Part shown: in pieces, positions 2,995-10,810 of the stretch
Numbering within the stretch: the first letter of the stretch is position 1
Layout of the letters: every line of letters starts with the position of its first letter
Assembly (NCBI GenBank): GCA_015234045.1
Contig: JADFWU010000075.1
Coordinates: 1-11,127, forward strand
DNA: 11,127 nt
Direction: 5' to 3'
Source of the DNA: Magnetococcales bacterium
GTDB lineage: Bacteria > Pseudomonadota > Magnetococcia > Magnetococcales > JADFWU01
Program-made: the position numbers and the translations under genes
Notes under the pieces: generated by a model
What the model saw: the letters and a program-made list of their open reading frames with translations, nothing else
Told to the model about the DNA's origin: nothing
Database searches by the model: none

Positions 2995-3702
2995 ATGAGC
3001 TTGATGAGCATGACAGAACTGGCCCGGTTTGCCGAGACACCAAAGGATAACCAACCCAAGGTTGGCTCCATGGGACGGCTCTCCCGTTTTCAGGATATGC
3101 TGGATCAGGCCATGGTTAATGGCCAAGGCATGTATGAAGATGATGGCAAACTTCCCATCCTTCATCGTCATTTAGTGAATCAGCTGTCCACTGCGATGCG
3201 CTCTGCCGTTATGCGTGCGGAACAGCTTTGGCAAGGCTCTGCCTTTGCCCATATGAATAGCGCTAAGGAAACCAGCAACACAGGCGCACAAAATAGCAGT
3301 CCGGTTCATGGGAGCGACTATCCCTTCTCTGATATGATCCGCAAAGCGTCCATGGAACATGGTATCAAAGAGCATCTGCTCCGCGCTGTTGTGGAAGTTC
3401 AGAGTAACTTTGATCCGAACGCAACCACAGCAGACGGTGCCAAAGGATTGGTGCCTCTGCAACCTGAAACGGCACAAGCACTGGGTGTCACTGACCTCAA
3501 CAGTGCCGAACAGAACGTCAATGCCGGTGCCAACTACCTCAGCCAACTGCTAAACCGCTATCAGGGTGAAGAAGACCTGTCGCTGGCTGCGCTCAACTGG
3601 GGTGTGAAAAATCTGGAACAGCGTCCTGGAGAAATTCCCTATGATACACGGAACTTCCTGGGCAGAGTGACCAAACTGATGGATCAGTACAGCGCCGCTT
3701 GA
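2995..3702 (+). CDS. Lytic transglycosylase (SLT) domain protein with substituted catalytic residue
   Basis: The protein is 235 residues long. Residues 1-105 form an unrecognised, mostly polar N-terminal part with no signal peptide or membrane segment. Residues about 113-230 match the SLT (goose-lysozyme-like) fold, with IRKASMEHGIKEHLLRAVV, then NFDPNATTADGAKGL, then QNVNAGANYLSQLL. In active enzymes the first block leads into an E-S pair; here it reads Q136-S137 (codon CAG at 3400-3402). The usual GLMQLMP is GLVPLQP and the usual AYNAG is ALNWG. The protein is therefore probably not a classical lytic transglycosylase and may bind peptidoglycan or act structurally. The start has a good ribosome binding site (TGGAG, seven bases before ATG). 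Its sigma-54 promoter suggests a flagellar role, perhaps with export by the flagellar secretion system as for the signal-less FlgJ; this is inference. Confidence 0.85.
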   Translation: MSLMSMTELARFAETPKDNQPKVGSMGRLSRFQDMLDQAMVNGQGMYEDDGKLPILHRHLVNQLSTAMRSAVMRAEQLWQGSAFAHMNSAKETSNTGAQNSSPVHGSDYPFSDMIRKASMEHGIKEHLLRAVVEVQSNFDPNATTADGAKGLVPLQPETAQALGVTDLNSAEQNVNAGANYLSQLLNRYQGEEDLSLAALNWGVKNLEQRPGEIPYDTRNFLGRVTKLMDQYSAA

Positions 3703-3884: not shown

Positions 3885-4448
3885 TTACGTATCTGAACGC
3901 TGAAAATAGTCTTGAATAAACTGGGCCACCTGTGCCGGTGCATTCAATGACAACACGGGCAATTGATCCCAGCCCTCCTCCCCTTTGGGCGGGTCTGGCC
4001 ATATTTCCATTGCCTCATCTACAGCAACAGCAACAATGTGAGACAGATTTTTAAACGCTGTCTGTTTTGTTACGCCTTTTCTCACCACTGCAATCTTCGG
4101 GTGGTTCTCGTTTTTATACCCTTCAATCAAAATCAGATCATAACCGCCTAAGTCACGCAACAGTTGAACCTGTTGTTGAAGGTCTGGTGCTTTTTTCTGG
4201 GGTAGTTCTTCAATTAAGAACCAGCGCTCAGGACCTGAAAAAATCACTGCATTGGCACCTGCTGTTCGAAATCTTTGTGAATCCTTACCCGCTTTATCCA
4301 CATCCGCAGCGTGATGACCATGTTTGATGGCCGCAACCCGTACGCCCATTTGTGACAATGCATTAATCACCTGCGCCATCAGTGTCGTTTTGCCTGTCCC
4401 ACTGGGCGCACAAAATCCCATAATCGGTAGCACACTTTGCTCACTCAC
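3885..4448 (-). CDS. mobB: Molybdopterin-guanine dinucleotide biosynthesis accessory protein MobB
   Basis: MobB is a P-loop GTPase that helps MobA attach GMP to molybdopterin when the bis-MGD cofactor is made in the cytoplasm. The protein has an APSGTGKTTL P-loop near residue 14 (the first glycine of the usual GPSGSGKT is alanine), the hallmark KHGHHAADVDKAGKDSQRF block at 42-60 and TAGA at 62-65, and LILIEGYK at 105-112. The longest frame begins at a TTG at 4466, but that codon lies inside a GAGGAG ribosome binding site; the GTG at 4448 ten bases downstream is the better start and gives 187 residues, a normal length. It stands alone, with no mobA or moe gene beside it, and implies that the organism makes molybdoenzymes. 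It has no evident link to the sugar genes. Confidence 0.9.
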   Translation of the reverse strand: MSEQSVLPIMGFCAPSGTGKTTLMAQVINALSQMGVRVAAIKHGHHAADVDKAGKDSQRFRTAGANAVIFSGPERWFLIEELPQKKAPDLQQQVQLLRDLGGYDLILIEGYKNENHPKIAVVRKGVTKQTAFKNLSHIVAVAVDEAMEIWPDPPKGEEGWDQLPVLSLNAPAQVAQFIQDYFQRSDT

Positions 4449-4554
4449 CAGATTTATACTCCTCAATCAATCAGTTAAGAAAAATATGTTGATTAAATAA
4501 GCCAAATATCCGATAGATTAAATACTGAGCTCACCTTAACGTCGAGAGATATTC

Positions 4555-5715
4555 ATGATCCCGTACGGACGCCAAGAGATCAATCAGTCGGACATTGATG
4601 CCGTTATCAATGCACTTCAATCCGACTATATTACCCAAGGCCCGCGCGTTGATCAGTTTGAACGCGCGGTAGCAGCCTACTGTGACACACCACACGCAGT
4701 AGCTGTTAACAATGGTACCGCAGCGTTGACTATGGCCTGCAACGCCTTGGGTGTTAATTCTAACAGTGTGGTATGGACATCGACCAATACTTTTACCGCT
4801 TCCGCCAACTGTGCCCGCAGCCTGGGCGCGCGCATTGGCTTCGTTGATGTGGAACCAGGCACATTCAACATGTGCCCAAACGACCTGCAAAAACGGCTTG
4901 AGCAATCTCAACACACCCATGAACCACTGCCAGATGTGGTGATTCCAGTCCACTTTGCCGGCCACTCCTGTGATATGCAGGCAATTCACGCACTCAGCAT
5001 TAAATACGGCTTTAAGATCCTTGAAGACGCATGCCACGCCATTGGTGGCCGCTATGAGGGTAAACCCGTAGGTCACGGACACCTTAGCGACATCACAGCA
5101 TTCAGCTTTCATCCGGTCAAACATATCACCACCGGTGAAGGCGGCATGGCCGTGACGCGCGACAGTACGCTTTACGAAAAAATGCAACTCATCCGAACCC
5201 ACGGTATTACCCGCGATCCTGACAAAATGATCAATCCGTCACATGGACCTTGGTACTATGAACAGATTCTGCTGGGCACCAACTATCGTATCACCGATAT
5301 TCAAACGGCGTTGGGTATCAGTCAACTGAAACGATTGGATGATTTTTGTGAACGCCGCCGTTCACGGGTTGCCCGTTACCGACAAGCACTGGCAGAGCTA
5401 CCGCTCAGCTATCTTGAAGAAAAAGAGTATGCTCAATCCGCTTGGCATCTGTTTGTGATTCAATTGGATCTTGAATCCATCTCGCTGGATCGGCGTACTG
5501 TTTTTGAAAAACTGCGTGAAGCAGGTATTGGTGTGAATGTTCACTATATTCCGGTTCATCTTCAACCCTACTATCACACACTCGGTTTCAATCCCGGCGA
5601 CTTTCCAGTGGCAGAACACTATTATCAACGCGCGATCACCCTGCCCCTTTTTCCCGGCCTGTCTGAGCAGGATCAAGATACGGTCATCAACGCATTGAAA
5701 AAGATCCTTGCATGA
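4555..5715 (+). CDS. pseC: UDP-4-amino-4,6-dideoxy-N-acetyl-beta-L-altrosamine transaminase
   Basis: PseC transfers an amino group from glutamate to the 4-keto sugar made by PseB, the second step of the pseudaminic acid pathway. The 386 residues form a complete DegT/DnrJ/EryC1/StrS aminotransferase. The N-terminus MIPYGRQEINQSDIDAV is typical of PseC. NNGTAALTMA (52-61) binds the cofactor phosphate, LEDACHA (156-162, D158) contacts the PLP ring nitrogen, and FHPVKHITTGEGG (185-197) holds the Schiff-base lysine K189. The C-terminal domain includes GIGVNVHYIPVHLQPYY. The ATG is preceded by GAGAG. The stop overlaps the start of the cytidylyltransferase by ATGA, so the pair is coupled. pseB, normally the partner, is not adjacent. 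Confidence 0.94.
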   Translation: MIPYGRQEINQSDIDAVINALQSDYITQGPRVDQFERAVAAYCDTPHAVAVNNGTAALTMACNALGVNSNSVVWTSTNTFTASANCARSLGARIGFVDVEPGTFNMCPNDLQKRLEQSQHTHEPLPDVVIPVHFAGHSCDMQAIHALSIKYGFKILEDACHAIGGRYEGKPVGHGHLSDITAFSFHPVKHITTGEGGMAVTRDSTLYEKMQLIRTHGITRDPDKMINPSHGPWYYEQILLGTNYRITDIQTALGISQLKRLDDFCERRRSRVARYRQALAELPLSYLEEKEYAQSAWHLFVIQLDLESISLDRRTVFEKLREAGIGVNVHYIPVHLQPYYHTLGFNPGDFPVAEHYYQRAITLPLFPGLSEQDQDTVINALKKILA

Positions 5716-6461
5716 GCACCACGGTCATTATTCAAGCCAGAATGGGTTCCAGTCGTCTGCCGGGTAAGATCCTCTTGCCACTTGGCACCGACACGGTTCT
5801 GGCCCAAGTGATCAAGCGCGTTTCAGCAGCTAAAGGTGTAGATCGGATCGTCATTGCCACCACGGACCAACCAAACGATGATGCGGTGGTTGCAGAAGCG
5901 CAGCGTATTGGGGTTGATTTTTTTCGGGGCAGTGAGTCTGATGTATTGGCAAGATATTACGATGCAGCCCGTCACTTTAACTGTGACATAATTGTTCGTG
6001 TCACTTCAGATTGTCCGCTGTACGATCCAACCCTTTTAACGAAGATGCTCAAAAAATTCAACAACTGGATTGAGACCAAAGCACCCGTGGATTACTTCAG
6101 CAACACGCTAACCCGCAGCTATCCAAGAGGATTGGATACCGAAATCTTTCGCATGGGTGCGTTGGAAAATATATATCAAAGCGCAACATCACTTGCAGAA
6201 CGTGAACATGTTACGCCCTATTTCTATCGTAACCCTGCGCTATTCAACATAGAAGAACAGATTGGTACGCCCGATCTATCCAACCATCGTTGGACGTTGG
6301 ACACCGATGAGGATTACCGGTTTATTCAAACCGTCTTTAAAAAACTGGAAGACCCATCTGGTACCTTATTCTCCACAAATCAACTTCTTGAACTTCTGGA
6401 ACAGAGACCAGATATCATGGTCATCAATTCAAAAGTCCAACAGAAACCTATTTCTCATTGA
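5712..6461 (+). CDS. SpsF-type cytidylyltransferase, probable CMP-pseudaminic acid synthetase
   Basis: This 249-residue protein belongs to the SpsF/CMP-KDO synthetase-like nucleotidyltransferases. It opens with VIIQARMGSSRLPGKIL, the nucleotide-binding loop, followed by RVTSDCPLYDP (96-106, with the metal-binding aspartate D100), EREHVTPYFY (163-172) and RWTLDTDEDY (193-202). The C-terminus ends with the usual LLELLEQRPDI...IN...QQK pattern, so it looks full length. Coupling to pseC by an ATGA overlap indicates that it activates Pse with CTP, the PseF step. It differs from the classical NeuA-like PseF, so the exact substrate is inferred from context. The gene that commonly follows in such clusters, pseG, is missing and a transposase remnant lies there instead. 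Confidence 0.85.
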   Translation: MSTTVIIQARMGSSRLPGKILLPLGTDTVLAQVIKRVSAAKGVDRIVIATTDQPNDDAVVAEAQRIGVDFFRGSESDVLARYYDAARHFNCDIIVRVTSDCPLYDPTLLTKMLKKFNNWIETKAPVDYFSNTLTRSYPRGLDTEIFRMGALENIYQSATSLAEREHVTPYFYRNPALFNIEEQIGTPDLSNHRWTLDTDEDYRFIQTVFKKLEDPSGTLFSTNQLLELLEQRPDIMVINSKVQQKPISH

Positions 6462-6542: not shown

Positions 6543-7056
6543 CCACAACAGAATGCTGTTGTTTATAAAAAACTTTGCAAACTGATGCACGAGCATACCA
6601 AACAACATATTGTTTACTTTGATAAAAGCGGATTAATTGAAGAAGTTGTCCGCATAAATGCTTGGTTAAAGAGAGGCAATCAAGTCTATGGCACCATACC
6701 AGAGAAAAGGCAAAAACGTACAAATTTGATTATGGCCCAAAGAGGTAAAAAACTGGATTACCCCAATGCTGTTCGAGGGTACATGCAATTCGATTGTTGT
6801 TAATAGTTGGGTTGAGAAAATGTTGTTTCCTGAGCTTGAGCAACCACGTGTCGTCGTTACGGACAATGCCAGTTTCCATAGCAAACGAGTTATCCACTCA
6901 ATTCTAGAAAAGCTTGGTCACATACTCTTACCATTGCCACCATATAGCCCAGATCTCAATCCTATAGAAGAGTCATTTGTCATCATCAAAAAGAGCCGCT
7001 TATCATCAATACCAAGCGGCTCTGTCGAAGAAGCAATAATGTTCAATTATGATTAG
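6543..7056 (+). pseudogene. IS630-family transposase remnant, frameshifted and 5'-truncated
   Basis: Two overlapping frames together give most of an IS630-type DDE transposase. The first, open from 6543, contains HIVYFDKSGL with the first catalytic Asp, then KRGNQVYGTIPEKRQKRTN and LIMAQRGKKLDYP. The second starts at 6766 with MLFEGTCNSIVVNSWVEKML and continues through VVVTDNASFH (second Asp) and LPPYSPDLNPIEE (catalytic Glu), ending at 7056. One extra base at about 6765, after a CCC codon, separates the frames. The N-terminal helix-turn-helix part is absent. Some IS630 members use programmed frameshifting, but the missing N-terminus argues for a dead copy. Terminal inverted repeats are not clear: ATAGCC at 6472 and the reverse complement of GACTAT at 7061-7066 could be decayed ends, but similarity beyond six bases is poor. 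Confidence 0.85.
6987..7023 (-). terminator. Rho-independent terminator for the GT2 gene, inside the transposase remnant
   Basis: AGAGCCGCTT (6992-7001) and AAGCGGCTCT (7014-7023) make a perfect 10-base stem with a 12-base loop. Read on the minus strand the stem runs directly into a run of T (the plus-strand A run just before 6993). It lies about 80-115 bases past the stop of the GT2 gene and would stop its transcription before the pse genes. It overlaps the last codons of the transposase remnant. Confidence 0.75.
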
Positions 7057-8272: not shown

Positions 8273-9424
8273 ATGCTCACCTATTGTAAATCCTGCGTGA
8301 TGCCCTCAACCAAGCCGGATCTCGTTCTTGATGAGGCGGGCATCTGCAATGCGTGCCGCAGCTTTGAAAACCGGGAAACCATTGACTGGCAAAGCCGCCG
8401 GAAGGAACTTGAAACCATTTTACAACGCTTTCGAAGCAAAGACGGTGCCCACTGGGATTGTGTGGTTCCGGTCAGTGGCGGCAAGGATAGCGCCTATCAG
8501 GTTATCCGTATGTTGCAGCTGGACATGACACCTCTGGCGGTGGTTTCCACCACCTGTCATCAGTCGGAATTGGGCAGAAAAAATATTCAGAATTTGAAAA
8601 ATCTTGGCGTGGACATGGTGGAGATGTCGCCCAATCCGGTTGTTCGACGCAAACTGAACCGCATTGGCTTAACCCAAGTTGGCGATATATCTTGGCCCGA
8701 ACATGTTGGTATCTTCACAATTCCGGTCAATATGGCTGTCCGATTCAAGATTCCACTGATCATCTGGGGCGAGAACTCCCAAAACGAATATGGCGGTCCT
8801 GCTGCGGCCAGTGAGAACAATGTGCTTAACCGGCGATGGCTGGAAGAGTTCGGCGGCCTGCTTGGGTTGCGTGTGTCTGACATGATCGGGATGGAAGGTC
8901 TGAGTCGTCGTGATCTGGTGCCCTATCACTACCCTCAGGACGACGATTTGCAGCGGGTTGGCGTAACTGGGTTATTCCTTGGCTACTACCTGCCTTGGGA
9001 TGGTTATGCCAATGCGCTACTGGCTCAAGCACATGGTTTTCAAACCTTTGATTCAACCGTTGAGGGCTCTATTGTCAACTATGAAAATCTGGATAACCAT
9101 CAAACCGGAATTCACGACTATTTTAAATTTTTGAAGTTTGGTTTTGGACGCGCCACCGACATTGCCTGCCTGCATATTCGTCGCAATCGCATCACACGTG
9201 CGGATGGTCTCGAACTGATCGGCAAACATGATGGCAAATTTCCATGGACCTATCTTGGTAAACCCATTGAGGACATTCTTGAACCCCTGGATCTGAGTTT
9301 GGATCAGTTCATCAAAATCTGTGATCGATTTACCAATAAAAAAATCTTTAAACGCGATGCCAGAGGCAATTTGGTCAAAGATCGTTTTGGCAACCTCTCC
9401 AAACTCAATGATGACAACCCATGA
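8273..9424 (+). CDS. N-acetyl sugar amidotransferase (PseA/WbpG family)
   Basis: Enzymes of this family turn an acetamido group of a sugar into an acetamidino group, using ATP and ammonia supplied by a glutaminase partner. The 383-residue length is normal. Residues 5-28 hold two CxxC pairs (C5, C8, C25, C28) that probably bind zinc. The PP-loop VSGGKDSAYQV (67-77) activates the substrate with ATP. Later family blocks include LIIWGENSQNEYGGP and LGYYLPWDGY. PseA in Campylobacter is linked to the acetamidino form of pseudaminic acid, and WbpG in Pseudomonas acts with HisH2 and HisF2 on a diacetamido uronic acid. The pse genes close by favour the PseA role, but the substrate is not proven. The start is fixed by an in-frame stop 15 bases upstream, and the stop overlaps hisH as ATGA. 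Confidence 0.92.
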   Translation: MLTYCKSCVMPSTKPDLVLDEAGICNACRSFENRETIDWQSRRKELETILQRFRSKDGAHWDCVVPVSGGKDSAYQVIRMLQLDMTPLAVVSTTCHQSELGRKNIQNLKNLGVDMVEMSPNPVVRRKLNRIGLTQVGDISWPEHVGIFTIPVNMAVRFKIPLIIWGENSQNEYGGPAAASENNVLNRRWLEEFGGLLGLRVSDMIGMEGLSRRDLVPYHYPQDDDLQRVGVTGLFLGYYLPWDGYANALLAQAHGFQTFDSTVEGSIVNYENLDNHQTGIHDYFKFLKFGFGRATDIACLHIRRNRITRADGLELIGKHDGKFPWTYLGKPIEDILEPLDLSLDQFIKICDRFTNKKIFKRDARGNLVKDRFGNLSKLNDDNP

Positions 9425-10035
9425 CGGCCCTGATCATCGACTATGGTATGGGCAATCTCGGTTCAGTGCGGCGCTCTTTGGAAGAGTGCGGTGCTGATGT
9501 TGTCATTTCCCGCAATCCCAGTGATTTGGATCAGGCCAGCCATGTTGTTCTGCCCGGTGTTGGTGCGTTTCAAGATGGTATGAAACGCCTGACAGAATCC
9601 GGTTGGCCGGAGGCAATCCGTAAAACCGCACTGGATGAAGGCGTGCCCTTCCTTGGTATCTGCCTTGGCATGCAACTGCTGGCTACCACAGGCAGCGAAG
9701 GCGGCACGACATCGGGACTCAATTTAATTCCAGGACATGTAATCCGGTTTGAGACCGATGATCCAGAGATACGCATTCCGCATGTGGGATGGAATGAGGT
9801 TCATTTTTCTGAGCAAACATACCCTTTTGAAGAGATCCCCTCGGGCGGGGATTTTTATTTTGTCCATAGCTTCCATTTTCAACCAGACAATGCCGAATCC
9901 ATCGCCGCGACCACACCCTATTGCGGTGAATTTGTCTCAGTTGTTCGGAATAATCTCATTGTTGGTACTCAATTTCACCCTGAGAAGAGCAGTCGCTATG
10001 GACGTCAGCTTCTCAACAATTTTTTAGCGCTTTGA
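9421..10035 (+). CDS. HisH-type glutamine amidotransferase, ammonia donor for sugar amidination
   Basis: This is a 204-residue class I glutaminase of the HisH family, about the usual length. The nucleophile is C81 in GICLGMQLL; the catalytic pair is H186 and E188 in QFHPEKS. The N-terminal IDYGMGNLGSV and the LPGVGAF loop are also intact. It should hydrolyse glutamine and pass ammonia to the HisF-like partner encoded next. It is coupled to the amidotransferase by ATGA and is separated from the hisF-like gene by a single base. No other histidine genes are near, so it is most likely the HisH2-type paralog for surface sugars rather than the histidine pathway enzyme. Confidence 0.92.
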   Translation: MTALIIDYGMGNLGSVRRSLEECGADVVISRNPSDLDQASHVVLPGVGAFQDGMKRLTESGWPEAIRKTALDEGVPFLGICLGMQLLATTGSEGGTTSGLNLIPGHVIRFETDDPEIRIPHVGWNEVHFSEQTYPFEEIPSGGDFYFVHSFHFQPDNAESIAATTPYCGEFVSVVRNNLIVGTQFHPEKSSRYGRQLLNNFLAL

Positions 10036-10036
10036 T

Positions 10037-10810
10037 ATGCTTAAGACTCGATTGATACCAACACTGCTTTGGAAAAACTTTGGCTTGGTCAAAGGTGTAT
10101 CCTTCGACAGTTGGCGGCGGATTGGCACTGTTCTTCCTGCCATCAAAGTCTACAATACCCGTGATGTGGATGAGCTTGTTTTACTGGATATTGCAGCCAC
10201 TGATGAAGGACGGGAACCAGACTATGAGTCCATTGAAGAGCTGGCCGCAGAATGTTTTGTACCGTTCACCATCGGCGGAGGCATTACTGAAACAGCCCAT
10301 ATCCGCAATCTGCTCAAAGCCGGTGCGGATAAAGTGGTGATCAATAGCGCTGCCTATGAAAATCCACAATTGATTCAACAGGGTGCTAACCAGTTCGGCG
10401 CACAGTGTATCGTTGCCAGCATTGATGCCAAACGCACACCAGACGGTTCATATCGCTGTTTCAGCCATTGCGGGAGCAAAAAAACAAACCAACATCCTGC
10501 CAATTGGGCACAAACCCTGGAACAACTCGGCGCTGGCGAAATCCTGATCACTTCTGTGGATGAAGATGGTGTCATGAATGGCTATGACCTCCCTTTGATC
10601 AAAGCAATATCACAACGGGTTTCCATTCCGGTCATCGCCTCAGGCGGAGCCGGACACTATTCCCATTTTGTTGAAGCGATTCAACAAGCTGGAGCCTCAG
10701 CTGTAGCAGCGGCGAGTATGTTTCATTTTACCGAACAAACCCCAGCTGAAGGCAAACAACATATGGCTGAAAAGGGTATTGCAGTTCGCAATATTCGAAT
10801 TATTGGTTAA
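10037..10810 (+). CDS. HisF-like ammonia-channel subunit, paralog without histidine-cyclase active site
   Basis: This is a 257-residue TIM barrel closely related to HisF. In true HisF the first strand reads PCLDVKDG with the catalytic Asp11; here it reads PTLLWKNFG, so position 11 is leucine. The other catalytic aspartate, D130 in SIDAKR, is present. Residues R5, E46 and K99 match by position the charged gate described in Thermotoga HisF, and E168 the fourth (E167 there). The phosphate-binding ends INSAAY and ASGGAG are kept. The gene is therefore best read as the WbpH/HisF2-type subunit that receives ammonia from the HisH partner and hands it to the PP-loop amidotransferase. It is the last gene of the operon. 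Confidence 0.9.
   Translation: MLKTRLIPTLLWKNFGLVKGVSFDSWRRIGTVLPAIKVYNTRDVDELVLLDIAATDEGREPDYESIEELAAECFVPFTIGGGITETAHIRNLLKAGADKVVINSAAYENPQLIQQGANQFGAQCIVASIDAKRTPDGSYRCFSHCGSKKTNQHPANWAQTLEQLGAGEILITSVDEDGVMNGYDLPLIKAISQRVSIPVIASGGAGHYSHFVEAIQQAGASAVAAASMFHFTEQTPAEGKQHMAEKGIAVRNIRIIG

Follow-up and report, generated by a model that had tools for sequence, protein, structure and literature searches.

What remains of a lytic transglycosylase when its catalytic glutamate is gone? The question is raised by a gene in an 11,127-nucleotide stretch of DNA (hereafter, the window) from a 3.65-Mb Magnetococcales genome. The layout of the gene and its product is as follows:

2984–2987, + strand: ribosome-binding site GGAG, read from the sequence
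2995–3702, + strand: ORF of an SLT-domain protein lacking the catalytic Glu and a signal peptide, 235 aa, ATG start
3088–3111, + strand: N-terminal FQDMLDQA motif (family form FxxxLxxA; alignment A1)
3151–3246, + strand: second N-terminal helix, residues 53–84, 59% identical to the ortholog in genome G002 and thus above the SLT part
3334–3618, + strand: SLT domain (Pfam PF01464), by profile match and by a fold match to MltF

The SLT domain is the sole recognised domain (residues 114–208, E = 2.5e-15, 56.5 bits for a cut-off of 21.3). Hydropathy peaks at 0.35 within the first 60 residues (15-residue sliding window) and no signal peptide is apparent, in agreement with the first-pass annotation. 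F32 and L36 of the FxxxLxxA motif are invariant across the 21 proteins of alignment A1. In the AlphaFold2 model, which was built from a 51-sequence alignment, the SLT helices are mostly above 90 pLDDT, and the two N-terminal helices are less certain. The SLT part superposes on MltF (4oxv; Z 15.4, 2.1 Å, 130 residues) and also on Slt. Confidence is weak in the loop following Gln136, which could be read as a sign of decay, but this reading was discarded because a Glu-form control is also low there.

The differences from active enzymes include these elements of the SLT part:

3400–3402, + strand: codon CAG, Gln136 at the catalytic Glu position (sequence, family, and structure alignments)
3445–3465, + strand: GLVPLQP instead of GLMQLMP (family alignment)
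3589–3603, + strand: ALNWG instead of the family AYNWG (family alignment)
3655–3657, + strand: Phe221 replacing the invariant Tyr of ETRxYV, Phe also in both other Glu-less lineages (see following)

The catalytic domains of MltF, Slt, and MltC have the same fold as the window protein, which nevertheless lacks the Glu and several motif residues. The catalytic Glu of solved transglycosylases falls in the Q136 column (three alignments are displayed). This column is Glu in 80 of 80 related GTDB loci, recovered with a two-sequence alignment query (a single-protein query gave none), and in all the Magnetococcales order-mates checked, with the exception of G010 and G023. The placement of Q136 at the catalytic-acid position in the first-pass annotation is therefore borne out. 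SLT proteins of genus g17 also matched the window protein; these were put aside as a separate AYNAG type with an intact Glu.

Among 50 Glu forms, 47 columns reach 96% conservation or more; of these near-invariant positions the window protein has lost 12 (136, 144, 145, 153, 154, 156, 171, 176, 200, 205, 217, and 221), while the Glu-bearing relatives lose at most one each (mean 0.14, n = 50). The substitutions include M153V, Q154P, Y200L, and Y221F in the motifs, and further S145T, M156Q, G205K, and E217D. The sequence hallmarks of an active lytic transglycosylase are thus altered: the Glu of the ES motif, GLMQ, AYN, and the C-terminal Tyr. Taken by itself, the tendency of these losses to fall in the textbook motifs does not reach significance (Fisher p 0.22). 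The SLT part also forms a long branch in the gene tree (0.94 changes per site) and looks relaxed, evolving clearly faster than usual. In view of this, the early description of the rest of the fold as well kept was too generous, since no Glu-bearing relative examined has lost as many conserved positions. The changes to GLVPLQP and ALNWG were correctly seen, although against AYNAG as the norm; the family norm is AYNWG, and therefore only Y200L is unusual in ALNWG. We infer that the window SLT domain does not cleave glycan.

Judged from the alignments, E136Q is a lineage-specific change and not an ancient one, because same-locus orthologs keep Glu. The closest full-length ortholog, that of G002, has it; the gene of G005, which has the gene order of the window, is interrupted by a contig end and retains AYNWGMGN and the Tyr. 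Such orthologs had initially been named as counter-evidence, showing either a recent or a sequencing change. They do exist, and they mark the change as specific to this lineage; a sequencing artifact is nevertheless very unlikely, given the 11 other losses.

The protein belongs to a family of signal-less SLT proteins, a grouping defined in the present analysis from Magnetococcales, Mariprofundus, and Geobacter. It is found order-wide in Magnetococcales and also in Mariprofundus, with a similar layout in Geobacterales and some Bacilli. In this layout a signal peptide is lacking, a short N-terminal region carries FxxxLxxA, and a variable linker leads to a C-terminal SLT domain that bears the motifs ES, GLMQLMP, AYNWG, and ETRxYV. 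The window protein has the layout (alignments A1 and A3) and an upstream sigma-54 site. The promoter and the neighbors that bear on function are:

2909–2924, + strand: sigma-54 −24/−12 site TGGCACACTGGCTGCA, score 13.5 of 14.5, 70 nt before the ATG
1525–2601, − strand: NeuB-family nonulosonate synthase, a neighbor with a flagellin-sugar context
4555–5715, + strand: DegT-family aminotransferase, directly 3′ of the SLT gene in G005 and adjoining it in G002
5712–6461, + strand: cytidylyltransferase of the same sugar pathway, synteny retained in G005

With a threshold score of at least 12.5 of 14.5, sigma-54 sites are present upstream of 25 of the 30 family genes scored, all from Magnetococcales and Mariprofundaceae, versus 7.8% of 166 control regions from neighboring genes (Fisher p 2e-17), and they mostly lie 40–100 nt from the gene start. 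The promoter proposed in the first-pass annotation is thus a shared feature of most orthologs, and the flagellar connection that it raised gains from the neighborhoods as well. Flagellin-type sugar genes adjoin the SLT gene in the window, in G002, and in G005 (L056); the order in G005 is SLT, aminotransferase, cytidylyltransferase, amidotransferase, hisH, and hisF. Flagellar genes themselves are close by in other genomes. In G054, FliW is upstream and FliS, FliD, and flagellin are downstream, and flagellin, FlaG, and FliS accompany the SLT gene in G009 (these genes being named by sequence inspection). PilZ-like genes occur at several loci, and the SLT gene of Geomonas has CheA/CheW/CheR-like genes and a sigma-54 activator nearby (again by sequence inspection). 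Gene context and promoter together support a tie between this family and the flagellum.

Other elements were observed in these neighborhoods. In the window, a mobB-like gene (3885–4466, − strand) lies between the SLT gene and the aminotransferase and is missing there in G005. A cut-down DDE_3 transposase (6766–7056, an IS630-like remnant) separates the cytidylyltransferase from a glycosyltransferase of the sugar cluster. Positions 8273–10810 hold an N-acetyl sugar amidotransferase-like ORF, for which Pfam gave no match, and after it hisH- and hisF-like genes, in the same order as at L056. Among the 21 loci compared, a macro-domain-like gene is near the SLT gene in nine (e.g., L040 7098–7640; cluster c2) and a PanE-like gene in 11.

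Two other lineages of the family have lost the Glu. G010 (which we take to be probably Magnetococcus marinus MC-1) and G023 have Gly in the catalytic column, together with Y200M, M156K, E217R, and Y221F. In the Mariprofundaceae G054 (L033 847–2016) and G080 (L206 880–2043), tandem SLT proteins have a first domain with Gln in the catalytic column, N201T, and Y221F, and an intact second domain. The change of Tyr221 to Phe is therefore common to all three Glu-less lineages.

One may ask whether the window and G010/G023 lost the Glu together, or by transfer. The gene tree joins them (support 98/94, falling to 94/62 once the motif columns are removed), with long branches. The tree of rpoB and dnaK contradicts this grouping: Glu-bearing G018 adjoins G010/G023, and the window as sister of G010 and G023 to the exclusion of G018 is rejected (AU p 7e-6). 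Moreover, the N-terminal helix of the window protein is 59% identical to that of G002 and only 19% to that of G010. The gene tree itself rejects neither the window with G002 (AU p 0.19) nor G018 with G010 and G023 (p 0.17). Because the species tree and the N-terminal similarities disagree with the gene-tree grouping, a common origin was not retained; separate losses are the simpler reading, and a loss that was shared or acquired by transfer is less likely.

Both other lineages preserve the Glu-less domain. The SLT part of G010/G023 (L011/L012) has a pN of 0.097 for a pS of 0.83, the latter saturated. Both tandem domains of G054/G080 are under purifying selection, with an omega of 0.057 for the Glu-less domain 1 versus 0.127 for the Glu-bearing domain 2, on small numbers. 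Since purifying selection acts in both pairs, an SLT domain of this family can evidently be maintained without its Glu. The window lineage is represented by a single genome, and its maintenance would follow from the intact ORF, the intact promoter, and the conserved N-terminal helix. With respect to G002, this helix is 59% identical and the SLT part 50%; whenever G002 is compared with a Glu form, the SLT part is instead the better conserved of the two. The maintained pseudoenzyme first proposed is partly supported: the loss of the catalytic acid and the maintenance of Glu-less forms in two other lineages are upheld, and the form in the window lineage may likewise be maintained.

The window gene might instead be decaying, a flagellar transglycosylase that became dispensable after another enzyme took over, with drift at its catalytic site and a pseudogene as the eventual outcome. 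The fast SLT branch, the loss of 12 of 47 conserved positions, the representation of the lineage by one genome, and the presence of other Glu-bearing SLT enzymes on contigs C37, C38, and C11 all fit this scenario. On the other hand, the ORF and ribosome-binding site are intact, the sigma-54 site is close to consensus, the N-terminal helix is conserved with G002, the structural core is retained with high model confidence, and the loss of Glu has been maintained in two other lineages. Decay is the chief competitor of the best explanation given below, though we hold it less likely.

A wall lectin is unlikely. Such a protein would bind glycan strands uncut in the E136Q groove, by analogy with MltE and Slt, whose Glu-to-Gln mutants hold their ligand in crystals. 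The fold is retained, and the folds closest to the window model do include ligand-bound mutants of this kind (4hjy and 6fcq). Yet M153, Q154, M156, Y200, and G205 are lost as well, and because of these losses of conserved motif residues the groove has probably been remodelled; the ligand contacts of Cj0843 (PMC5951611) served as the reference for the groove residues concerned. That the protein is still an enzyme, with E134, D140, or D217 replacing Glu136 as the acid, is very unlikely: these acids are nearby in sequence, but E134 and D140 cannot be taken as compensating because the Glu form of G002 has both, D217 replaces an invariant Glu, and the Gly form likewise lacks an acid close before the catalytic position. 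An error in sequencing or assembly could account for codon 136 by one base (G to C, between a Glu and a Gln codon), but is unlikely in the extreme, because 11 other near-invariant positions are lost in an otherwise intact frame.

The best explanation, to which we give about an even chance, is that the window protein is non-catalytic, flagellum-linked, and maintained. Under this explanation, a sigma-54-controlled member of the family would have lost glycan cleavage through E136Q and several other losses in the catalytic motifs, would have kept the N-terminal helices and the core of the SLT fold, and would most likely serve as an accessory protein without catalysis. Its N-terminal part would bring it to the flagellar basal body, either once the flagellar secretion system has exported it or through attachment to a partner that is itself exported, for which the single-domain rod cap FlgJ is an example. 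There the SLT fold would act as a platform onto which the wall, or an active lytic transglycosylase from another locus of the genome, could dock. This docking mechanism, taken by itself, is tentative and on the unlikely side. The FlgJ of the window genome is a 136-residue rod cap lacking a hydrolase domain, and the glucosaminidase domain PF01832 has no match in this genome. The window protein matches neither PF10135 nor PF01832, and it is not a dual-domain FlgJ.

Several known systems provide points of comparison. The best NCBIfam match of the window SLT domain is NF047373 (BB0259_flg_lyt), the flagellar assembly lytic transglycosylase BB0259 (LTase-Bb) of Borrelia burgdorferi, with 45.6 bits, well below the 234-bit cut-off of a model of about 700 positions. 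BB0259 has a flagellar role, as is likely for the window protein, and is separate from a single-domain FlgJ, as in the window genome. However, it depends on Glu580, for which the window protein has no equivalent: E580Q acts like a deletion, and hooks are trapped under the wall (PMC8517470). Because BB0259 needs its Glu, the window protein is unlikely to take on the same task; a different transglycosylase would be required, and Glu-bearing candidates are present on C37, C38, and C11. CwlQ (YjbJ) of Bacillus subtilis, an SLT protein listed under SigD, is similar by description; it is cited as needed for swarming and not for flagellar assembly. SLT proteins of Bacilli occur among the relatives of the window protein, but CwlQ, unlike the latter, is an active enzyme. 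Finally, DipM and other LytM-domain factors contain an inactive wall-hydrolase domain, which in the regulator DipM docks and stimulates lytic transglycosylases (PMC10336132); they differ from the window protein in having an unrelated fold and a role in division. A non-catalytic role is the most likely one remaining for the window protein. In the open-access literature searched, no SLT-domain transglycosylase without its Glu is described.

The three lineages suggest a more general hypothesis, which we hold at somewhat less than even probability: in magnetotactic cocci and marine iron oxidisers, a flagellum-linked transglycosylase may have repeatedly and independently become a maintained non-enzymatic part of the flagellum, dropping the catalytic Glu and the C-terminal Tyr each time. 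In Mariprofundaceae, one polypeptide pairs a Glu-less SLT domain with an intact one. If the Glu-less forms are indeed maintained, a protein presumed to cut holes in the wall would have a second, non-cutting role at the flagellum, one that is able to outlive catalysis.
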